Assembly: GCA_037042915.1 (NCBI GenBank)
Contig: CM073204.1
Location: 372,001 to 436,000 of the forward strand
Origin: Auricularia sp. M13
Taxonomy: Eukaryota > Basidiomycota > Agaricomycetes > Auriculariales > Auriculariaceae
DNA: 64,000 bases
Reading direction: 5' to 3'
Part shown: piece by piece, positions 1,324 through 40,902 of the stretch
How positions within the stretch are numbered: the stretch's first letter is position 1
Layout of the letters: each line of letters begins with the position of its first letter
Made by a program: the position numbers and the translations under genes
The notes under the pieces: model-generated
The model's input: only the letters and a program-made list of their open reading frames with translations
Database searches by the model: none
What the model was told of the DNA's origin: nothing

Positions 1324-4300
1324 ATGAGCACCGATATCCCGAGTGCAAGCAAGGCCTCCGCGCAGCATACGCAGGCCGAAGGCTCTGGTATACAAAGTCT
1401 TGGAGGTGGCGGGACACAAAGCACCGAAGATCCTGGCGCCAGTGAGCATACGAGCCCCAGATTCCCTCCCGCTGCCATGGACAGACCTCAATACTCCAAT
1501 CCCAAGTACATGGATCCTGAATGGCAGTACGAAGGTGCGTAGTCCGTGTTGCAGCTGCGTGATCGACCGGGAATTAACAGGTACCTTCAGGCCGTCCGAA
1601 AACTAAATTCAACGAGGACTATCCCCCAGACGCGTGGGGAGAAGAGGCCTCCCCTAATGCGCGCGTGTGGAAGATATACCGCGACAAGCAGAGCAACGCC
1701 GACAAGGCGATGCTCGACACTTGGAACAAGACCCTGGACGTGTTGCTGATCTTCGTGAGTGCGCGCCTGTCAGGCCACAGGCTACGATTCTGATCGCGTT
1801 ACCCTTGTATAGGCCGGTCTCTTTTCCGCAGTGTCTACTGCGTTCATCATCGAGTCCTATAAAGCTCTCCAGCCGGACTACACTCAATACATCGCCAACG
1901 TTCTCTACGCAGCTGCCGTCAGCAATCAAACTCTGGCCGGCGTCACTGGCATCGCATCCCCTGACAGCTTCCACCCCTCGGCGACGGAGCGCTGGACAAA
2001 CGGGATGTGGTTCTCGAGCCTGGTCGTCAGCCTGGCCGTCGCGCTGCTCAGCATCCTCATCAAACAGTGGCTCGACGAATACGAAAGGCACATCACGGGC
2101 TCTGCGGTGTCCCCCGTCCACTGGGCGCGCCGCCACCAGCTCTATTCGCGCGGCCTGAAGGCATGGGGTGTCCCGGCGCTCATTTCGCTCCTGCCGCTGC
2201 TCCTGCACGTCTCGCTGTTTCTCTTCTTTGCTGGCCTCGTGCTGTTCCTGCGACCGCTGGACGACGCCATTGCCAATACGCTGCTGGGTCTGGTCGCAGC
2301 TGTCCTGCTATTCTACGTGCTTGCCCTCCTGTTTCCTGCGTGGCGCGTGGAGTGCCCGTCCTACACGCCGCTGCTCGCGCAAGGGCGTTCTGCCGTGACT
2401 TTTGTTCTCCAAATGCTGATCTATCTGAACCTCAATGGGCTGGTTGACAGCTGCTTATCCTACCCCTTACGACACGATGCTGGCCGGTTTGTACGTTTCA
2501 TTGGCTGTAACGATGCCATGGATGCAGTCCGCAATGCTTCTCGACGCGCCGTGTGGGGTCTGGCCAATCTTCTAGAGCGCAGCAAGAACGGCCTCATCCG
2601 GGAGACAAGCGCTATAGATGCACAAAAACGCGAGCTTGATGGATGGGCGCTCGCTGCAGTCCTCCTGTCTACGGCTGACAGCGAGACCGTCAATGCCGGT
2701 ATTGAGGCCCTCGGTGCTGTGCCCGTCGGCCGCACCCTCGACATTGCACTGTCCAATCTCCCGAGAAATCATTGGTACACTATCTACAACGCCTTGTCGC
2801 CCGCCGTCGATCTCCCATCCGAGAGCGGGTTTGCTATCACGACTTTTGCGCGACGCATGCGGACGTGTTTGGTGGGCTCGCCATACAGGTGGCTCCTTCC
2901 TGGCCCTCGGAAGGGACCTGACCTGGCCGCGTCGCTTGGCCTAGACGGCATGTTGCTGATGGCTATGGCGCCCGACTCGCGATTTCAGGAATATTTTGAC
3001 CTGGGCCACCTGGTCACCTTGCTGCAGCGGCAACTCTCCGCCCAGATCTCGGATTCGTCTCACGCTGAGAAAGATCGGTCCCTATCTTTTGGCGAGTCGG
3101 CCTCTCAGTGGAATAGTCTCCCGCACTTCACAGTATGCCTGCTATTCCTGACCTGGCTCGGAGTATCGGGCTTAGCTCCCACGGAACCTCGCTGGGTCTC
3201 CTGCGCCCTTCTTGTGCTATGCGCCGGTCAGTTTCATCGGAGAGAGAATGACGAACGGACACTTGCGATGCGCAGCCTCCTGACATGGCTTGACGCGCCA
3301 GTCGCACACGGAGATGATGCCGATCTCGTGGCCTTAAACGGCTTGTATTCTCTGCTCCGCTCTCAAGGCGGCTTGGACGGCGAGACGATCGGCATCGTCA
3401 TGCACCATCTCCTCTTGCTGTGCCAATATATTGTCCAATGCCCGCCCGATCGCAGGGTGAAATGGTCGAAACTGCCCGACCTTTCGGCTTTCGTGCGTTC
3501 CCCCGAGTTCGAGCAGCATCTTTCCCAGGCAGCGCAGGCTAGCTATATGGCTGTTCTAGCCCGGGTGGACCTCTCTGACATCGAGGAAACAGATATTTCT
3601 GAGGACTATTGCTCGTGTGCCGCCAAACTTCTGAGGCTCAGCTGCGACAGCGATGCCGGACTGCCGCATGTGCACGAGGCGGAGCTGGTGTTTATTTTGG
3701 AGGACTTGCTTCTCTGGCGGACCTCTGCATCTCTTCCTGAGAGCATATGCGACGCCGTGCTTCGTGCGTTTCTGTCTGGCGAGAACGCGGTCTCCACTTG
3801 GTCCGAGGAACGCTGGGTCGGCTGGGATAACGCGAACCCGTTCACCCGCCTCGCCAATATCCTGTCTTCCGTCCTCTGCCACAAACAGCGCCGGCGCCAA
3901 CCTCTCGATCTCGAGCGCACACTCGTCGACGGTTTTTGCTCCGGCGGTTTCCTGCTGCATCGATTCCGCACATTCCTAAGCCGTAATCTCGCGTCAGACT
4001 GGATATGGAGCGATGAGATCATGCCCCTGGCGAGGCATTGCGCGCGCATATCACCGGCTGCGTGGGAGCGAGTCTGCGCGGCGCTCGAGACGACCGGCGA
4101 CGAGGGGAGCGCTCTTCGAGCAGATGCGCTTCGATTTGCGGACGCACTGCGCACCAGGCTCATGCCGGGCAATGTGAATACGGATTGCACTCAGCAATGC
4201 TACTGCATGAGAATCTCTGCTGCTGTTGCAAATTCCACCAAGACGCTGGGCCGCTGGCGTTGGAGAGATCGCATACTCGGAATAGCCATGCGACGGACGC

Positions 4301-4365
4301 GCAATCCAGCTAGGTTCGATTCATATCCAACCGGACATCGACCATCTACAGGTTCGCTTGGCTGA
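1324..4365 (+). CDS. DUF6535 domain multi-pass membrane protein
   Basis: Three exons, 1324-1534, 1591-1754 and 1813-4365, join in frame to give 975 residues. Exon 2 reads RVWKIYRDKQSNADKAMLDT and, across intron 2, WNKTLDVLLIF-AGLFSAV, the recognisable start of the Agaricomycete DUF6535 domain. The domain spans roughly residues 95-305 and holds about four membrane segments: 118-137, 190-210, 246-271 and 280-300. The remaining 670 residues are mostly helical with no domain I recognise. Introns are 56 and 58 bp with GTGCGT and GTGAGT donors and CAG/TAG acceptors. The start at 1324 (MSTDIPSA) is preferred; an in-frame ATG at 1210 is the alternative. The family is large in mushroom genomes and has no established function, so none is assigned. 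Family assignment is from memory of the motif; the exon joins are read directly. Confidence 0.85.
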
Positions 4366-11082: not shown

Positions 11083-12102
11083 CTACATCATAAACTGGTC
11101 CATCTCGTTGAGCGTCCAGTACTTGCGCATATTGTCCGTGCTCAGGTCGACACTGCACCTCGACATTTCAGTACGCGAGCAAGCGGAATGTGAGAGGAAG
11201 AGTAGGACGCGGGACGCACACTTCCTCGTCCAGATGCCTGAACAGCACGTCACGGAACGAGTCCAGGCAGTCGCGCAGCTCCTTGGGCGAGTAGGTCTTC
11301 GGGTCCGCGCGCCATTTGTGGACTAGCTCGCTGAGTTTGTCGAGACCTATTACCAGTGGAGGATAGAGAACGATGAGAAGGGATATTTCGTGCAGCGATC
11401 TCACGCGATGCAGGACATACCGTCGTGGATGCCCTTGTGCGAGTTGCGGTGCTGGTCGTTCGGCTGGAAGGCCTTCATGCGCGTCGCGAGGTGGGGGAAG
11501 ATGTATGTCTGTCGCAGGTTCAGTCAATGTCAGAAGAAGGAAAGGAAGGACAGCAGTGAGACAATGGGCTGCATCCTGATGACAGAGTGAGACCCCTACC
11601 TCTTCGATGTTGTGGTGCCCCTCGAGGTCTGCGGCCGAACTGAATAGGATTCCTAAGACGTAAAGCAGGACGTACGACGCTTGAAATTGTTAATCTGCAT
11701 CAGGAACATCGGGAGCGACATCCCGCGCTCATTAAATGAGCCGTCTGCCATCTGCCAAAGTAATGTCTCCTAAGCACCCTACACTGTATTGCCAGCAATT
11801 CTATGACTTACCTCATAGATATCGTTGACTTGAAGGTGGCAGGCAGGTTCACAATTGAAGTCAAGTCGAGTCTTCAGGTAAGCGCGCGCCGATTACCTCA
11901 TGGCATATGGGCGTACGTACAGTCTGCTCGGAAGTACGCGTGGAATTGCTCCATCGTCGTCGCCATCTGCAATTGAAACGATTAGTAGGCTCTCATCAGG
12001 GCGGCCCGAGCGTACGCGGTTGAACTTGCGCTCCTCCAGAGGCGTGAGGGGCGCGTCGGGCGGGAGGATGGTGTTCGGGTCGTTCGACGTCGACGTCGAC
12101 AT
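11083..12102 (-). CDS. Hemerythrin HHE cation-binding domain protein
   Basis: Eight short minus-strand exons (12102-12016, 11966-11921, 11828-11812, 11751-11676, 11628-11600, 11508-11421, 11346-11220, 11152-11083) give 179 residues. Metal-ligand candidates are H38 in MEQFHAYF, H76/H80/H81/E85 in HLEGHHNIEE, H105/H109/H113 in HRNSHKGIHDG and H152/E156 in LFRHLDEEV, the pattern of HHE-domain proteins that bind a di-iron centre in a four-helix bundle. The C-terminus RKYWTLNEMDQF is typical of fungal members. Exon 3 is only 17 nt. The chosen start is MSTSTSND at 12102. The frame stays open upstream and reads as basic, hydrophobic, mitochondrial-presequence-like sequence (RLLARRITRPLSVSHRIRTR) but without an ATG, so an upstream exon or non-AUG start is possible. 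Role in metal or oxygen handling is inferred from the family only. Confidence 0.88.
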
Positions 12103-15100
12103 GGCGCGCGTGCGAATGCGATGGCTGACCGAGAGCGGGCGGGTGATCCTGCGCGCGAGCAGGCGCAATGGCAGCAGGGTGGGCGATATCCAAGCTGGCG
12201 GATTGGACGCGGGCGGCTGCGCATGGCACGCAACAGCTATTTAACCGCCGGTCGGGCCCCGGCAATCTACTGTAGTACTACAGTGTACAGGTTCAAGTCA
12301 TACTGTACAAGAAAATTCTGAGTCGCTGACCGAAGATACGGAGGATGTGTTCCCAACGATTAGATGTTGTATTTGAAGATTACATGATGATTAGGTACCA
12401 ATGGACTACTATACGGCGGTCAAACAGATGCTTGCAAACAGGATCCCTGATGAGCTCATTACGATCACGTTTGCTGGGTCAGCACAGCCTGCTAATACAA
12501 GTGCCGCGGTGTATCTAGCTTTTTCTACCTTGTCGGGGATAAAAGACCATGACCGAGCTCGAGCGTCGTGAAAACATACTGAATTACAAATGATACAAAT
12601 CGTGAGGGAGTAGTAGTGCTGCAAGCTTGACTCGGAGTCGGTTGCAGTCAGTGCTTGAGAAGAAACTGCTTGATTCAATCTAACCCGTGCTCACTGCTGC
12701 AGGGCTTTCGGCGAGTCCACTATCCAAAGTATGCCTTCCTCTCATCTCTAGGCGGGGGACGGACCGGGTGGACAGGGAAGAGTCTTTCTTTGTAGTCCGG
12801 GCCCCGGTTGACAGTTTCGACCCGGGCGTAAACTCGCTAGTACAGCGTCTAAAAGCCTTCAGTTTATAGGTGCCAGCGACTTGGCACTGACAGCTATTTA
12901 CTGTTCGAACTCGAGTCTGATCTCCTGCAAGAGTTGAGACCTCACCGCGTGAAGAGAAAAATATAACAAACGATAGCCCTTTAGGACATAATAAGGCCCT
13001 TTCTCATGAGAGCATGTATAATAAATAGCTCAATGCAGTCCCCACCATCCCGAAACATCCTTTAAAGCCGCGGAACAACGGGAAGCAAGTCTTTTCCAAA
13101 GTCCGACTGAACCTCGTCACATCTTGCGCTCCCAGTCGTGCCAGTCCGATATTTCCTACTGCATCCCCCTCCGACTATACACAGAACAGCGCTTGTCCTG
13201 TGTACCCTAACATGACGTGCACCTGCCAGTGACGTGCCCGGTGGATGGCCAGCGACTCTGCCGCTCGTGGACGTTGCTGGGCCCTGCCAGACAGCTTCGT
13301 CACGCCACATTGCAGCGACTCCACGCAGACCAGAACGCGCTCGGCCCCTGTCCCGCACCCTACGCTACCTGCCTACCTCGGGCAGTATTATCCGCTTGCG
13401 GCAAGGCGCTGCTTTGGCTTTATTCAGTTGCGCAAATACCTAACGGGCGTCGGGCGCGATGGCAGATAGGAATCAGGATGCCCACTGAATCAAAGAATCT
13501 CTAGAAACGCGAAACGCTGTCAGGCCCTGCTTGTCTCTTGCCCGCACTTGCTCCCGTCTGCAATCATTGTCCTGGAGATGTTCTAGTGCGCGTAGCCTGG
13601 ATTCTTGCCGATGCTCCGAGGGTGACATGCCGCGGCCGTGGTTCGACCTTCAAGTTCAAGCTTCAACAGCCTCATTGTTGTATGCGGGATCTTTGTACGC
13701 TCAACTCTGAATCTCACGCTTGGCTATTCAGCGCCTAGTTTACTTTCTCTCTCGAAGAGCATTGGACTCCCACGCCAGAGCTGCCTTAGTTTGCATGTTG
13801 CAGAATACTGGCACATGCACATAGAGAGATGTAACCCAGTTGTGGACCCTCGCCGTATCTCCGTATCCCATATTGTTGTTTCACTCATCTCGGGTGCTGT
13901 TGCTAATTCCTAGGGCTAGGGCAGAGTCGCCAGACCGTCTATGTTGACCGCCGGCTCCATCGGCCTCGTGCTGCTGAACTAATGTCCTGAACGGCGCATA
14001 TGCAGTGCACAGAGCATATGCCTCGCCTAATCAGCGACATGCGACGGGCGACATTGTGCTCTTCTCTGGCGCCAATGGGTACCGCTGTACTCAGCTGCCA
14101 CGATGCAGCCCGACGAAAACTCATGGCTGGTGCAGTCCCTTGAATCTAGATTGGCCTCCCGCCTGCTTCACTGTTACTCGACCTTCTTCGCCGTACAATT
14201 TAGCGCCTCACAATTGTCTGCTTATCAACAACTCGCCAATTGTGAGCAGCACAGCAGCGCTCACATAATCATATTGGCCGCCCTGCTCGCACACACCGGC
14301 AGTCAGGCTTCTATACATATTCTGATCAGCTGCGCTGCACTGTGATCATATGCAGTGCACACGCGCTGGTCAGGTACTCCTCACTTCGAGCGCGTCTCTC
14401 GTGACTTGCGAACATCAGCAGCACCACCGGCGATACTCGAAAACATTCAACCAAACGAAGTTTACGAACGAGTCCCCGGTTCTGCACAGCTTCCCAGCAT
14501 ATGCAAGCGCTGCTGGTAGAAGCGAATGTAGCCAAACTTTCCTGAATCATCAGCGCGAGTTGGCCCAAACTCGCCTGTTCCAAACCGTGCGGGCGTCCGT
14601 TTGATCCGGAGCGCTCTGTGATCGCATTCTCAGGCATGTCGCATGCGCAGGCCTCAGGCTTCGAAAAGGGCTTCCTGAGGCCTGCACAATCCAGTGTTCT
14701 GTCTCCCGGTAAGTTTCCTTCCATGGCAATAAATCTCCCTTAGCGCTTTCATCAGCATAACGCTCGGTGGCGAACCCAGAACAGCAAGTGTTCATATTTG
14801 CTTGACCTTACCACGGACACTACACGCCGGCCCCGCGTCGTGTGTCCTGCAGCTGGACGCTGGGTTCGGCAGATGTAATCGTGGATGTCGCGATGGGACG
14901 AAACTTTGATGTTCGTTGCAAATTCGATCATTTCTGGTTGGAAATCTCGCGGTTAGAGGGGTACTGTTTTTCACCTCTCCTCGAGCTATCACGGCTGCAG
15001 GGGACCTCCGAGTATGAAACTGGGGCCGTGCTCAGTATCCGCAGCGCCCTGGAGACCGTCGACGACGACGACACTCAATTACAAGCACTCGACGTATCCC

Positions 15101-26693: not shown

Positions 26694-28262
26694 ATGACCA
26701 GTTCGTCCACGCGCGATCCGAACCGCTTCGCTACTGGGCTCGAGGCCGACGCAGTTCGCTCTAGAATCAACGACGAGGAGCTGGAGCTCGACGTTCTGCA
26801 TGCGAACCGCGAACGCGCCAAGCTTGCGCTGGACGATGCTCAAGCGCGCTTCCATGCTGTCGAGGAGCAGTACCTGCTTCACAAGGCGCTGGTAGACGAC
26901 GCTTCGAAGTATCTGGCGGATGCTGAGCGTAAGCGCGACGCTCAGCAAGCCAGCGTCACCTCCCACCGAGCGTTTTTCCACCCAGTTCGCAAGCTTCCTC
27001 TCGAGGTCCTTGGCCACATCTTCGTGCTTGCGCTGGGCGAGACTGCACTGGAACGCGATATCCCGCCGTCATCTGTACTTGTGCGAAGCATGCAACTTCT
27101 GCCATTCACGCTGGCGTCTGTTTGTCGTCGCTGGCGTCAAGCTAGCCTTGATCATCCTCGCGCCTGGAGCCACCTATATCTTTCATTCGACAGTATCAAG
27201 AGAGGAACGGAGCGCAGATGGACGCAGTTCATTGGCACGTTCCTAATGCGGTCGCGTGCCGTGCCCATCATCATCAGCATTTCTCGAAAAAGGGAGCCCA
27301 AGACATTCCACCAGCCGCTCATCGCCCCTGTCCTCCGCGCTACTGCCAAAGCCTCTGCCATCCAACTATACCTCGCGCATTTTGTATACGACTTCGACAT
27401 GTTCCTCCCGATTTTGACGACCAAGTACCCCAAGCTACTTCGCGCGCGCATCGAACTTCCCGCGACAGGACCTGCATCCCCCACCAACGTCCAGCTGTTC
27501 CCAGAGGCGCTGGCCATGACGTTTCTAGAGGGCACAGTACCTTTTCCCAGCGCCGCCTTCCGTTTTCCAGCGCTCCAAGAAGCACATCTAACCGCGCTGT
27601 CGTGCAAGGACGGAAACGACACGCTCACGGCACTCTTGAGATCATCTCCGTCTCTGCGTGTCCTACGTCTCCTCATCCCCGTCATTCGGAATCGGGGAAT
27701 CCAGCCTCGCATCGTGGCCACGCACCTGGAAACTCTCATACTGGGTGTCGACGCTTCCTGTCCGCTGGAAGCTTTGGCCCGTCGCGTCGAGTTGCCCCGC
27801 CTCAAAACACTCCAACTAGTGGGTGAGGCCCCTTCCGGTCCTCAGCGCGTCGCATTTCTTGGTGCTGTGATCGTCACGTCCCCAGAACTCTCTACTCTGT
27901 CGATATCCAATGTCGACGAACCTACCTTTGTGACGTTGATTGGTCTCCTCCCAACGCTACTGCGGCTCGAGACTTTGATTCTCTCGGATTCTCTCGTGGT
28001 CAAAAACACCATTTCCGCCCTGTCTCGTGCTCTGCAGCCGGCAGAGGGAAGTGACAAGTGGCCGTGCCCAAAACTTTCGGGGATCGCATTTGACCAGAAA
28101 TGCGCCTTCAAGGACGAATGCGATCCGCAGGAAATGGTATCACTACTCGAATCACGGTCGTTAGCATCGCGTGAGGAGGGCTCGGATGTTTCGGCTCTCG
28201 GAGTCATCTGTGATTCCTGGACGACAGGCGCGGTCATCATACGAAGCTGCCAACTCGATTAG
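26694..28262 (+). CDS. Coiled-coil F-box protein, family B (copy 1)
   Basis: A single exon encodes 522 residues. The order is typical of Agaricomycete F-box proteins: a short N-terminal motif (RDPNRFATGLEADAV), an acidic/basic coiled coil at about 20-85, then an F-box at about 95-155 with FHPVRKLPLEVLGHIF and LASVCRRWRQASLDHPRAW. Irregular leucine-rich repeats follow to the C-terminus (LRVLRLLIPV, LETLILG, LKTLQLVG, LRLETLILS). A conserved C-terminal motif, CAFKDECDPQEMV, is shared with the paralogues at 28537 and 39277. F-box proteins normally dock substrates to SCF ubiquitin ligases through Skp1; the substrate is unknown. Intronless, unlike most genes here. Confidence 0.87.
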   Translation: MTSSSTRDPNRFATGLEADAVRSRINDEELELDVLHANRERAKLALDDAQARFHAVEEQYLLHKALVDDASKYLADAERKRDAQQASVTSHRAFFHPVRKLPLEVLGHIFVLALGETALERDIPPSSVLVRSMQLLPFTLASVCRRWRQASLDHPRAWSHLYLSFDSIKRGTERRWTQFIGTFLMRSRAVPIIISISRKREPKTFHQPLIAPVLRATAKASAIQLYLAHFVYDFDMFLPILTTKYPKLLRARIELPATGPASPTNVQLFPEALAMTFLEGTVPFPSAAFRFPALQEAHLTALSCKDGNDTLTALLRSSPSLRVLRLLIPVIRNRGIQPRIVATHLETLILGVDASCPLEALARRVELPRLKTLQLVGEAPSGPQRVAFLGAVIVTSPELSTLSISNVDEPTFVTLIGLLPTLLRLETLILSDSLVVKNTISALSRALQPAEGSDKWPCPKLSGIAFDQKCAFKDECDPQEMVSLLESRSLASREEGSDVSALGVICDSWTTGAVIIRSCQLD

Positions 28263-28991
28263 GTATGGCTACTTATTCATAATTTGCTCGCAAATATTTG
28301 ACGTGCATTGCGCTCTGTCCGTCATGAAATGGCTTCTGGTCGCGCGAGATTCAAAACTGCTTTAGTACCTGCGATAATTCCTTACTTAAATTTATGTGCT
28401 ATCAATTCTAGATATGCGAAGTAATATTGTTATTGGGCTCATTATAGGCGCAGGAGCAACTGATAGTATAAATAAAACCCGCAATGACACGGGACAATGC
28501 ATCTTCAAACTCCGCCCGAGTCTTCTCCACCTTGTCATGGCTGATCGTCTAGACCCGAACAGGTTTGCTGGAAGCTACGAGGAGCCGCACCTACGTGCAC
28601 ACGTCGAAGAGGACGAGCTCGAGCTCGACCTGTTGCGGACAAAATCCGAGCGGGCCAAGCGCGCGCTTGACGAAGCAGACACGCGCTTTCGGGTCATCGA
28701 ACAGCAGTACAAGGAATACAAGCACATAAGAGACGATGCCGCTGCGTACGCCGCCGAGGTGCAGCGCAAACACGAAGCCCAGGTCGCGGTCGTCAGCCTG
28801 CGCAAGGCCTACTTCCACCCGATTCGCAAGCTCGCCGCCGAAACGCTCGAGCGCATTTTCGTGTTTACCATAGGCGACCTGTCTGACGTCGGGAGACAGA
28901 CAACGCCCGAGGATATCTCTACTCGCCAACTACAGCCCTTTCGACTTGCGGCAGTCTGCCGTTGCTGGCGCCAGGCAATCTCGAAAGCCGC

Positions 28992-29001
28992 GGGCCCTTG
29001 G
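28992..29001. repeat. Target site duplication, left copy
   Basis: GGGCCCTTGG directly before the inserted element; the identical 10 bases follow the element at 30185-30194. In the F-box frame these bases encode part of Gly-Pro-Trp. Confidence 0.85.
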
Positions 29002-30184
29002 AGAACGTATGAGTTGCTGACAAAACCAACCAAACCAACCATGCCAAACATACCAACGGGCAGATATGACCGCTACGGCCGATTATACCCGTATGTCCGA
29101 ATCGCCGGTGCCGCAGCCGCTCTGCATCCGGTGTTTGTGTGTTTGGCCGTCGTCGACTTTTGCCTCGTCGCCGTCGTCGATGCAATGGCGCCGCTGATGC
29201 GCTGTACGACACGGGCGTCTTCAGCCCCATCTTCCTTCACGATGTTCTTTCTCGCATAGCCTAAGATTGTATGCTGTCACATCCAGTCCCGTCATCCTCG
29301 TTTCCCCAGACCCCCGGCCCACAGCATCTGCCGTGATACGTGCACACGCCGCCACCGCGAACTCGGCGACGGTGTGCGGTGCGTATCCTCTGCCCCTTGC
29401 TGCACACTAGGATGCTGCGCCGCTGACGTCGTGTGTGAGTGCACGCGCAATGCTGCGTCGTGCACGATTGTACCCATTGCCGCCGCCGTTGCGGTGTTGC
29501 ACGCACCGCGCGGCGCTGAGCTGCCATCCCATGTACAGTTACATCGGCGCCGGCTTACCATGTTCTCCGTATCGCGCTGCGTACGCATGCGTCAGCCGCT
29601 TGCGCGGCCTCGTTTTCCCCAATCCCGCGCGCCACCCCGTCCTAGCCCCCTCCGCACCACCTCCGTTATATCCCACACACCGACCAACATTGTGCCCATT
29701 CACGCCCACCGCGACTCTCCCGAGCTTGTCGCCGACTTGCCGAGATGTACGTGTATATAGCATATCCGGTTTACGCTCTTATGTGCCCATCCTCCCCAGC
29801 TGAGAAAAATTAAATTATCGCGTTGGCATGTCGAAGTTGAACTGTACCTATAGGCTATGACCATCGATCTCTTTTCAATCAATGCTCCCATTTAGCACCC
29901 GTGCAGCCGCTTTCGTGCAGGCCGAAGATGTTGCCCTGAAAACCACAGTGACAGCAAGACGGTATTACATTGCTTAGGCTCTTTTCAAGTTATGCTGGAT
30001 TGCATGATTAAAGGGACAAGACTCAGAGGAGGACATGAAGAAAAGGATAGGAGGCGGGGAGGTCGCAGTGAGGAACGACCGTCGGGCTGTACGCGGAGAT
30101 TGCGGCGCGGAATACGAGCTCGGTGGGCCGGTCGTTGGTATGGTTAGTTTGGTTGGCCGGTTTTGTCCGGATCTCCGACGTTGT
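29002..30184. mobile_element. Non-autonomous TIR transposon in F-box gene
   Basis: The 1183-bp element starts AGAACGTATGAG and ends with the imperfect reverse complement (ACAACGTCGGAG on the other strand). The terminal inverted repeats are about 50-60 bp; both contain GACAAAACC followed by runs of CCAACCAAAC and CCATACCAACG. It is bounded by a 10-bp direct duplication, GGGCCCTTGG (28992-29001 and 30185-30194). I saw no transposase-like reading frame inside, so it looks non-autonomous. A 9-11 bp target duplication fits Mutator-like elements, but the superfamily is not proven. It interrupts the F-box gene exactly between two codons. Confidence 0.82.
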
Positions 30185-30194
30185 GGGCCCTTGG
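30185..30194. repeat. Target site duplication, right copy
   Basis: GGGCCCTTGG, identical to 28992-29001, immediately after the inserted element. The next base begins the codon that continues the F-box reading frame. Confidence 0.85.
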
Positions 30195-31531
30195 ACCCAG
30201 GTCGAAGTATGTCTGGACAGAAGGCCGCACTCGTATGGGTATGGGAAGGCGGCATTCATTGCACTCATGAAGTCTAAATCTGGCACGTCTGCGATCACAC
30301 TCTGCCTACGGCGGCAAGGTGACGCGCACGACACTGACTCTGTGATTATCCGCCGGCTTACCGAATTATTACCCCGGTGCTCGACTCTGCTTATTTACCT
30401 GTCGGATCTCATTGCCAAGGATGCGTTTCTGCCTCTGCTTACAGCCGACATCCCAATTTTAACCGTCGCGCATCTCGAGTTCGACGCGGTCGGCGACGCG
30501 GTTGGCGCCCAAAACCTTATCTTACTCCCAAAAGCGACGCGTCTTCGCTCTCTCTGGTCGAAGAATATTTTCGGGCTCGTTGCGGATACGCTGCCGTCTC
30601 TGACCAATGTTACTTTGGTCAACCTCCACTGCTCCGCCGAGCGCGACGACATCCAGCACCTCATTTCTTCCGCACGCAAGGTGCAGAGCATCCAGCTCAT
30701 CACACCAGTCATCAAAATTCCTAACTCGGCCGACGTTGCAGTCGTCGCGCCCCCCTTGTCTGGGCTGGTGCTCGAGGTCGCAGATGATTGCCGGGTAGAC
30801 AAACTCTCGCGCCGCATCCAATTCACGAGTATATCGCATTTATCGCTCCTTGGTGGGTACGCCTCCAGCAAGTACCGCATGGCGTTCCTCGACACCGTCG
30901 CTAAAAGTGTGCATGTGCGAACTCTTCGAATCAGCTCGCTCAACATCACGTCCCTGCCTCAGCTGGTCTCCATCGTCCCAAATCTCCACGAGCTCACGGA
31001 GCTTCTCATCCAGCGCACGTCGTTCACGAAGGACATGCTGCGCTCTCTCTTCAAGGCGCTCGCTACCACCGGTAAAAAAGCTCGCACATGGCCCTGCCCG
31101 CATCTCGAGACCCTCTGTCTGGACGAAGGCTGCTTCTTCGCAGACGATTGCGATCCCGCAGACATTCTGACCACCGTAAAATCACGGTTGGATGCAGCCA
31201 CCGGCGCGCTGGATGCACCGGACCCGCTCAGGCGGTGTGTTCTCGACGGGTGGGAAAAGAAAGGCCGGACAGGTCTTCAGATGGAGATCAATCAACTTAT
31301 CCTGGCTCAAGATATTTTTGGGTAATTTCAACATGTATCTTACTGTATAAACCTTCTCAGTAGGGCTGTATACGGCTGCACTAGCAGATGTTCAGATCAG
31401 AATTACACTACAATATACTGTACGTATTGAGAGTCAATACAACTACATTACAACCGATACAATTAGATCTGTAGCCAAGCTGGTAGCTGTAGGACCCGGA
31501 CATCCTTCGGTATTCTTTCTCCTCGCTTCTC

Positions 31532-38900: not shown

Positions 38901-39276
38901 CCCAACTCAAGTGCCGCCTTACTGTAAGAAATCTTCAAGCGCCGTCCAACAACCCCGCTGTTACACCCGTAACCCATATTGCAGGTCTCGTTGGATGTTA
39001 ACTTGGATGCGGGAGGCCCGACTGATCATTTGTTGCGACAGAAAGTCGATGATGGTGCGACTGAGTCGGTGCCCCTAGTCCGCGGCTCCTTCTTAACTAA
39101 TTTACATAGTCATTTTTCATCCTAATTGACTTGAAACAGGAAATTTGGAGACATTTTGAGAGCGCGAATGCATGTTCTGCATAATGGAAGACGGAACAAA
39201 AACGCTTTGAAGCTCCGCCCGCATCCTTTCTTGCCGTCCACCACCCAGACGCTACACTGTGTTCTGCTCGTGCAGT
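38901..39276. other. Spacer between F-box pseudogene and F-box gene
   Basis: No gene. It should contain the promoter of the intact gene at 39277. No clear TATA box. Confidence 0.4.
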
Positions 39277-40902
39277 ATGGCGTTTCCTGAGCGCGATCCC
39301 AACCGCTACGCTGGCGCAATGGAAGCTGCCAGTGTTCGGGCATGCCTTGCCGCCCAGGCCGACGAGCTGCTCCTCCTTCGGGAGAACCACCAACAGGCGC
39401 GAAGGGCGACTGCAGACGCCGAAGCGCGCGTTTGCGAAAAAATCCTGGAAGAAATTCACTTGCTCAGGCACATCCGAGACGATGCTGCTTCGCTCGAAGC
39501 AGATCTGCAGCGGCGGCTGGACGCCCTGACGGAGGAGATCGTCATCAACTGTGGTCTGCTGCATCCTGTCCGAAAGATGCCGCTCGAGCTCCTCGGCGAA
39601 ATTTTCGAGTACTGCCTAGTCGACATTCGCGATGAGGGTTGGGACGACGAACACTTGCTATACGAAAACGATATCTATCCTCGACAAGTGCAGCCGTTCA
39701 GGCTTGCTGCCGTTTGTAGGAGATGGCGGATGGCTAGCTTCGCAGCTCCCAGAGTGTGGTCCCACGTCGCTCTTTCATTTGATTCTGTGACGCAGCGAAC
39801 AGTTGCCATGTGGATGACATTCCTTGGGACAGTGCTGCAGCGTTCGGGAGCCGCGCCAATATGTATCTTTGTCGCCCGCGCGTACGCGAGCCAGTCCTAC
39901 CATGCCGCACCAGCCGCTATACTAGCGAATGCCATGTCTCGCTGCTGTTTCCTGCGCGTTGCTATCAAGGGCTTCACCCACAACGACGCTCTGCTCGCGG
40001 TTCTCGGTTCACGGTCGCCACGGCTGCTCCACGCCTCATTATTTGCGAGGGACATAAATTCTGACTCTCCTGGGATGATGGAGCTGCTTCCTGGAGCGCA
40101 TAATCTTCGTCGATTGAAGTCATGCAACGTGTTCAGAAAAGGGCCGACCGTCTTTCCTGCCCTCACCAGCCTATCTCTGACCATCCCACACTGTCTGTCC
40201 GAGCGGGACGACATTGCCCATGTCATCGAGACCTCTCCACTTCTGAAGTACCTGGTTATAGAGCTTCCCATCATACTCCAAAGGGTTCTTCCCACGGAAA
40301 AGGCTGTCGCTCCATCCCTCACGCACATGGGAGTCATTCTGTTCGGCGCACGCCCCTTCCAATGCCTTGCAGATTTTTTGGAATTCCCCGACCTATCGAC
40401 GCTTTTCCTGAAGAGGGACAAAGACTTAGACGCCGACCTCATTGAGTTCATCTCGAAGCTTGCGACGTCGTCGTCCCGACTGTCGCGCTTGACCTTCGAA
40501 AGCTCGGGCGAGGCGGAGTTCTTGAACTTTCTCGCCGTTCTCCCTCTCCTGGGAGCACTTGTGGCTCTCAACTTCGACGGCGCTCCCATCTGGACCATAA
40601 CCAAGCGCGATTTGCACTCATTCTGCACCGTACTCGATCATCCTCGAGCCGACGGTTCCTGGATCTGCTGCCAGCTAGACTCCATATCATTCGGCGGTCA
40701 TTGTAAATTCGACGCCGACTGCGACCCCGAGGATATATATCGTCTCATCCAGAAGCGACTTACAGCATGTGACGAGGAACGCGAGCATACTGTGGCTTCG
40801 CTCTCGACGTTCACAGTTGCCGGCTGGCCGTCTGAAACGCGAGCGATTGTGCAGCACCGCATCAACGCCATGCTCGAATGTATCGATGACGATTATACTT
40901 AG
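39277..40902 (+). CDS. Coiled-coil F-box protein, family B (copy 4)
   Basis: A single exon encodes 541 residues, starting MAFPERDPNRYAGAMEAASV. Residues 20-90 form a charged coiled coil; the F-box follows at about 95-165 with LHPVRKMPLELLGEIFEYCL and RLAAVCRRWRMASFAAPRVW. The remainder has irregular leucine-rich segments and the shared motif CKFDADCDPEDIYRLI near the C-terminus. The same architecture is seen at 26694 and in the two broken copies at 28537 and 38370. Presumed SCF ubiquitin-ligase adaptor; substrate unknown. Intronless. Confidence 0.87.
   Translation: MAFPERDPNRYAGAMEAASVRACLAAQADELLLLRENHQQARRATADAEARVCEKILEEIHLLRHIRDDAASLEADLQRRLDALTEEIVINCGLLHPVRKMPLELLGEIFEYCLVDIRDEGWDDEHLLYENDIYPRQVQPFRLAAVCRRWRMASFAAPRVWSHVALSFDSVTQRTVAMWMTFLGTVLQRSGAAPICIFVARAYASQSYHAAPAAILANAMSRCCFLRVAIKGFTHNDALLAVLGSRSPRLLHASLFARDINSDSPGMMELLPGAHNLRRLKSCNVFRKGPTVFPALTSLSLTIPHCLSERDDIAHVIETSPLLKYLVIELPIILQRVLPTEKAVAPSLTHMGVILFGARPFQCLADFLEFPDLSTLFLKRDKDLDADLIEFISKLATSSSRLSRLTFESSGEAEFLNFLAVLPLLGALVALNFDGAPIWTITKRDLHSFCTVLDHPRADGSWICCQLDSISFGGHCKFDADCDPEDIYRLIQKRLTACDEEREHTVASLSTFTVAGWPSETRAIVQHRINAMLECIDDDYT

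Follow-up and report, generated by a model that had tools for sequence, protein, structure and literature searches.

A recently inserted non-autonomous DNA transposon in an F-box-like gene of Auricularia sp. M13 and its likely relationship to CxC6-bearing elements

A gene of Auricularia sp. M13 is interrupted in its coding sequence by an insert of about 1.2 kb, which raises the questions of what this insert is, how recently it arrived and what moved it. The locus lies in a window of 64,000 nucleotides, by which we mean the whole stretch of DNA analysed (C12:372001-436000; C-numbers denote the contigs of a 52-Mb, 14-contig assembly). A first-pass annotation, made from the letters of this window, had described a DNA transposon of 1183 bp with imperfect terminal inverted repeats (TIRs), a 10-bp target site duplication and an insertion point exactly between two codons.

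To define the edges of the insert, its ends were lined up with those of other copies in the genome. The direct repeat GGGCCCTTGG is indeed present on both sides, at 28992-29001 and 30185-30194, but the alignment reduces the duplication to 8 bp and extends the element to 1185 bp, starting and ending with G. The longer repeat was read because both terminal bases of the element are G and agree with flank bases, and the extra G on either side is a coincidence between flank and element. The imperfect inverted repeats were confirmed, with 19 of the 26 terminal bases pairing; among 20000 random pairs of places set equally far apart in the window, none reached this value, and in 20000 such controls one showed a repeated 8-mer at the element's spacing. 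The inverted ends and the direct repeat are thus beyond chance. The features of the element are as follows.

28993..29000, no strand: target site duplication GGCCCTTG, left copy, 8 bp; a single copy stands in the empty allele on C9
29001..30185, plus strand: non-autonomous TIR DNA transposon, 1185 bp, without recognizable coding capacity
29001..29031, plus strand: left terminal inverted repeat GAGAACGTATGAGTTGCTGACAAAACCAACC, carrying the end pattern common to the copies
29026..29058, plus strand: left subterminal AACC/CCAA array, inverted partner of 30133-30156, with similar arrays in other copies and in a 3.9-kb relative on C4
30133..30156, minus strand: right subterminal AACC/CCAA array, inverted partner of the left array
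30155..30185, minus strand: right terminal inverted repeat, reading inward CACAACGTCGGAGATCCGGACAAAACCGGCC, placed by alignment with other copies
30186..30193, no strand: target site duplication GGCCCTTG, right copy, 8 bp, direct repeat

The outer ends read GAGAACGTATGAG at the left and GTCCGGATCTCCGACG at the right, the latter replaced by GTCCGGAAGTCCGACG in some copies, and the exact end pair of the element is GAGAACGTATGAG/CGTCGGAGATCCGGAC. Subterminal CCAACC runs had been put forward as a family signature. These runs are indeed found again, in the left end of those copies that were read and at either end of the C4 relative, but the outer-end sequences are the sharper signature. An Rfam scan of 28900-30300 gave no matches, a scan for bacterial-type promoters and terminators remained at chance level, and the exact left end had no match in viral contigs.

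The revised edges also move the insertion point within the gene, whose parts are listed here.

28537..29001, plus strand: 5' part (155 codons) of the interrupted gene, with its coiled-coil and F-box-like region, 99% identical to C9:503461-503925
29257..29259, plus strand: first in-frame stop of the interrupted gene, inside the element, giving a predicted unspliced product of 240 aa
30195..31325, plus strand: 3' part of the interrupted gene, leucine-rich-repeat (LRR)-like region (Pfam matches below cut-off), 376 codons and stop, open, 99% identical to C9:502333-503460

Because the duplication is 8 bp long and the element starts at 29001, the insertion falls not between codons but after the second base of codon 155 (TGG), the first G of the element supplying the third base. 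Without the insert the flanks form one open frame, in agreement with the earlier proposal that removal of the element and one duplication copy restores the gene. The joined length of 155 + 376 = 531 aa lies, as had been claimed, between those of two paralogous ORFs in the window (522 and 547 aa, the latter counted from GTG). With the insert, the frame from the ATG at 28537 passes codon 155 and stops after 240 codons. Since the insertion follows the F-box-like part, this allele is predicted to yield at most a truncated protein in which the LRR part is missing. As for the label of a coiled-coil F-box gene, the Pfam F-box-like score of 13.5 bits, against a cut-off of 24.3, points only weakly to an F-box identity; the two window paralogues score 23.0 and 18.7 bits. 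These paralogues lie at window positions 26694-28262 and 39259-40902, and more relatives are clustered on C12 and C9. An insertion preference for this gene family was considered and dropped, since the 995 bases to the left and to the right of each of the other 13 copies showed no similarity to the interrupted gene or to the two window paralogues. Elsewhere in the window, an 844-aa frame at 1831-4365 carries DUF6535 (5.2e-43), the stretch 1497-2397 has copies on C1, C7 and C11 that are 70-75% identical, and 11605-12204, probably another repeat, is 86% identical to C1:9179300-9179861. The DUF6535 gene, the expanded F-box-like/LRR genes and the KDZ matches of the genome point to a mushroom-forming basidiomycete.

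Next, we compared the locus with its counterpart on C9. The stretch C9:503300-503620 equals the window flanks minus the element and minus one duplication copy, at 320 of 321 bases. When the two gene halves were searched separately as proteins, both found 99% identical partners there that are directly contiguous (right part, C9:502333-503460; left part, C9:503461-503925), and the C9 allele has an uninterrupted open frame of 575 aa. The perfect site, free of any footprint, fits a state in which the element was never inserted. The near-identical empty allele in the same assembly supports a recent insertion, as the first-pass annotation had proposed, and the right part of the gene, still open, is as expected of a recent event. 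The insertion itself is all but certain.

In this region, C9 and C12 have the appearance of two haplotypes. Sixteen paired places, hand-picked from similarity listings, run in strictly inverse order, C12:253 kb-946 kb against C9:666 kb-206 kb. If C9 were instead a segmental duplicate, the insertion would be fixed in one of two paralogous genes. Such a duplication would accommodate the variable identity between the contigs (94% over 7 kb, 320 of 321 bases at this site) and the unequal paired span (about 0.69 Mb on C12 versus 0.46 Mb on C9); C12 places at 577 kb, 823 kb and 891 kb are without a C9 partner in the similarity lists. The strictly inverse order of all 16 pairs is more simply explained by a leftover haplotig, and we regard the duplicate as quite improbable.

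The same empty allele bears on the idea that the gene simply has a long intron here, or that the insert is removed by splicing in the same way. The start of the element, GAGAACGTATGAG, holds a possible donor, and 4 of the 120 donor/acceptor pairs formed from donors in 28950-29400 and acceptors in 29700-30260 would restore the downstream frame. Yet the four candidates are 944-1214 bp long and show no CTRAY motif in their last 50 bases, the C9 allele lacks the insert altogether, and the ends recur at 13 other places, eight of them with perfect 8-bp duplications of other sequence. An intron is therefore scarcely credible, and the insert is treated below as a transposon.

The whole-genome search for further copies and an autonomous relative that had been suggested at the outset yielded 13 more two-ended copies and one coding candidate. 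With the insert as query, at least 37 matches were obtained: the insert itself, four relatives that share its interior (83, 79, 77 and 76% identical over the main piece) and further places sharing ends alone or short pieces. The left-end pattern (24 bases, two free positions), allowing up to 3 mismatches, gave 21 matches, comprising 14 left ends and 7 right ends, versus 0 for the control; it was exact in 12 of the 14 left ends, the other two having 1 and 2 mismatches. The right-end pattern gave 22 matches versus 4 for the control, and 8 of the 22 were unpaired. The 14 two-ended copies, including that of the window, measure 1035-2375 bp. Their first base is G in 13 of 14, L012 being shortened at its left end, and their last base is G in all 14. 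The 8-bp duplication is perfect in nine copies and matches at 7 of 8 bases in two, while three have no good duplication (L012, 5/8; L015, 3/8; L018, 1/8 bases).

These copies share ends rather than interiors. Type A interiors are found in the window copy and L009-L012, and type B interiors in L013, L014 and L016-L021, with no alignment between the two types beyond the ends. L015 (C7:2672613-2674333; L015:1000-2720) combines the ends of the family with another interior that holds a Copia gag-like frame (PF14223, 2.4e-14). In block alignments of the five type A copies and of seven of the eight type B copies (L021 left out), identity per 50-column block was 93-100% over the first 100 columns and 86-97% in the last two blocks, whereas interior blocks dropped to 72% in type A and 57% in type B. 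Indel lengths showed no preference for multiples of three (76, 78 and 60 of 214 in type A; 85, 174 and 120 of 379 in type B). The closest pair among the copies compared, L019 (C2:710548-711871) and L020 (C1:8622729-8624043), both of type B, is 98% identical at different sites, indicating that some copies moved recently.

In agreement with the earlier statement that the element has no transposase frame, the longest frame of the window copy (166 aa) had no Pfam match at E 0.05. The coding scan of the sister copies covered one frame each of 4 of the 13 (L009, L012, L015 and L021): besides the gag-like frame of L015, it gave a weak MYT1 match in L009 (15.6 bits, cut-off 27) and no match in L012 and L021. 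Inverted ends shared by dispersed copies, an 8-bp duplication, a clean empty site and no transposase encoded in the frames scanned together characterize a non-autonomous class II TIR (cut-and-paste) element.

Several structures related to, or nested in, these copies were observed. In L021, about 0.9 kb at ~2056-2965 has its own inverted ends, GGGGTCCGGCAACGTCAG...CTGACGTTGCCGGACCCC, and is apparently another transposon nested in a type B copy; one long frame in this extra stretch had no Pfam match. At L022:2988-3461 (C2:1617724-1618197), two type B right ends form a tandem spaced by about 0.4 kb, for which no left end was found. Three places (L081, C5:2959017; L082, C5:3533627; L084, C2:211371-211533) represent a third related type; they have a subterminal stretch in common and ends like CAGTGTCGGAGTTGCGGACAAAACA. 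The sequence CAGGTGCGAGTTCCAGACAAAACT, with 13 exact occurrences in the genome search, was also considered as a family end; the one place inspected (201 bases) had no end structure, and we took it for another repeat.

A type B query revealed further relatives sharing subterminal sequence. Among them are two widely spaced pairs of ends, one spanning 3.85 kb on C4 and one spanning about 4.0 kb on C5; the putative C5 relative, at about C5:3533830-3537845, adjoins the third-type place at C5:3533627. Shorter end pairs related to the C4 element, about 1.1-1.3 kb apart, lie at C8:1823798-1825120, C3:3129135-3130440, C6:3972552-3973861 and C1:8159155-8160292. The C4 element entered this comparison with 301 bases of its interior and 157 bases around its ends.

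C4:498471-502345: C4 relative, 3875 bp, left end GTGAACGT..., right end ...CTCCGACGCATTG, with GTGAGAAC on both outer sides as an 8-bp duplication

The layout of its ends is similar to that of the window family. The link from the window element to C4 is stepwise, from type A to type B and from type B to C4, with ends shared and no interior in the compared parts. A type B copy and the C4 element are 90% identical over 81 subterminal bases. Corresponding ends of the C4 element and of types A and B agree at 21 to 25 of the 31 terminal bases, opposite ends at 19 to 20; for type A alone the values are 22 and 21 of 31, where opposite ends already reach 19. In the middle of the C4 element, a 301-base stretch encodes a CxC6 domain on the minus strand (66.8 bits against a cut-off of 27.5; E 2e-18), the zinc cluster that owes its name to its association with KDZ transposases. 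A stop precedes CxC6 in the same frame and possibly lies in an intron. Searching viral contigs with the CxC6 fragment gave eight pattern matches, none of them a relative. The KDZ core (PF18758) was not found in C4:498471-502345 among the 149 matches listed (150 of 163 candidates scored), which leaves KDZ membership unproven. The first-pass annotation had assigned the element to no family; the 13 sister copies and the 3.9-kb relative with its KDZ-associated CxC6 narrow that choice.

To find the source of mobility, the coordinates of domain matches and of the 14 two-ended copies were compared by eye: the listed KDZ (149), hAT (21, from a single domain model) and MULE (6) matches all fall outside the copies, and the C4 relative likewise contains none of the listed hAT or MULE matches. 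In 3-kb hAT and KDZ loci, the TIR core was matched at no more than 14 of 19 bases, which does not exceed the level of 18 control stretches from the window. A right-end-like stretch at C5:657173-657212 (L023:3999-4038), about 1.4 kb upstream of a KDZ match on the minus strand (C5:655152-655742), was considered as one end of an autonomous copy and rejected, since its inner side faces away from the match; by a rough estimate, this closeness is not striking.

These results bear on two other possible sources of the transposase. hAT elements have subterminal repeats and end in 5'-CAG/TAG. Movement of the same insertion by a hAT-type transposase would fit the subterminal repeats, as also seen in hAT MITEs, and the 21 dimerization-domain matches in the genome, but the ends GAG/CAC/CAA of the element differ from those of hAT, no listed match falls in any copy or in the C4 relative, and the TIR-core matches at hAT loci do not rise above the controls. 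The 8-bp duplications are likewise shared with hAT (PMC12730594). On balance, we consider a hAT source unlikely. A Mutator-like transposase is highly improbable: the duplication is 8 bp, not 9, in each of the 11 copies (of 14) that allow it to be read, and the six MULE-domain matches of the genome, which would otherwise speak for it, all lie outside the 14 copies and the C4 relative. Mutator-like elements are known for 9-bp (8-11) duplications, long TIRs and a MULE domain, and the duplication range and TIRs would be compatible with the element.

The remaining, and preferred, candidate is a KDZ-like source, and we compared the family with described systems. Duplications of 8 bp are given for Zisupton and Dileera, and of 7 bp, without TIRs, for two Laccaria Kyakuja families (PMC12730594). 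In Cryptococcus neoformans, KDZ1 makes 8-bp and KDZ2 and KDZ3 make 4-8 bp duplications; all three are about 9-11 kb long with TIRs of 139-241 bp (139-169 bp in KDZ2 and KDZ3) and carry CxC1 and the KDZ core, and that study found no evidence that clearly non-autonomous copies had moved (PMC12810828). The window family thus shares with Zisupton, Dileera and KDZ1 the 8-bp duplication, and with KDZ1 also the TIRs and a CxC zinc cluster, which belongs to the transposase gene of the full-length KDZ element there and is the CxC6 of the C4 relative here. It differs from KDZ1-3 in the length of its TIRs (about 30 bp), in the C4 relative, which measures 3.9 kb and carries CxC6 but in which no KDZ core was detected, and in the lack of a gene in the window copy. 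As the KDZ core was not found, we do not file the window element as a KDZ member; it behaves like one.

Another parallel comes from a sporeless strain of Pleurotus ostreatus, in which a CxC5/CxC6 insert of 6,792 bp with an ORF of 739 aa interrupts MSH4 (PMC7641404). In both cases a repeated fragment breaks a mushroom gene in one strain or allele and is absent from that gene in another, whereas the window copy is 1.2 kb long and has no recognizable gene. According to that study, intact KDZ genes of P. ostreatus are never preceded by CxC5/CxC6, no KDZ gene lies near the CxC5/CxC6 regions, and the authors associate the insert with Copia and suggest the involvement of Copia (PMC7641404). The terms 'inverted repeat', 'target site' and 'duplication' are absent from its main text. 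Among the open-licence papers listed by our literature searches, we found no description of a TIR element with CxC5/CxC6.

Taken together, the insert is probably a non-autonomous cut-and-paste DNA transposon that entered one haplotype recently, is KDZ-like, and is moved in trans by CxC6-bearing relatives. The latter part is likely, its basis being the stepwise similarity of ends and one short interior stretch. Against it stand the KDZ core that was not found in the C4 relative, the three copies without a good duplication, the 4-8 bp duplications and 139-169-bp TIRs of KDZ2 and KDZ3, and the P. ostreatus KDZ genes that CxC5/CxC6 never precedes. In the proposed course of events, the element, one of at least 14 two-ended copies, inserted into what is probably one haplotype of the F-box-like/LRR gene and duplicated 8 bp. 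Its ends (imperfect TIRs of about 30 bp and inverted AACC arrays) are kept near constant, presumably as the binding sites of a transposase that is supplied in trans, whereas interiors would be free to drift or to be exchanged. The enzyme would most likely come from the element type represented by the 3875-bp C4 copy, because of its similar end layout, its 8-bp duplication and its KDZ-associated CxC6 gene, and the CxC6 protein would then be the transposase or belong to it. The window allele would give a truncated protein at most, and the C9 allele is intact.

A further, tentative reading is that CxC5/CxC6 proteins are the transposases, or essential partners, of a TIR transposon group of their own that lacks the KDZ core; we hold this to be possible but doubtful. 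Its marks would be AACC arrays, 8-bp duplications and, in most copies, the ends GWGAACGT.../CAnnnCGTCGGAGAT...; besides a coding form of about 3.9 kb, it would comprise many smaller derivatives that are non-coding and unrelated in their interiors. If so, the insert that breaks MSH4 in the oyster mushroom could be such an element and not a by-product of Copia.

For the fungus, the insertion is an ordinary loss-of-function allele, and it is a clean marker of recent activity because the empty allele sits in the same assembly. The useful part is the link to CxC6. The nature of CxC6-carrying elements was left open in the oyster-mushroom MSH4 work (PMC7641404), and the present family suggests both ends and a duplication length for them, so that the source of mobility is now testable in this and other mushroom genomes.
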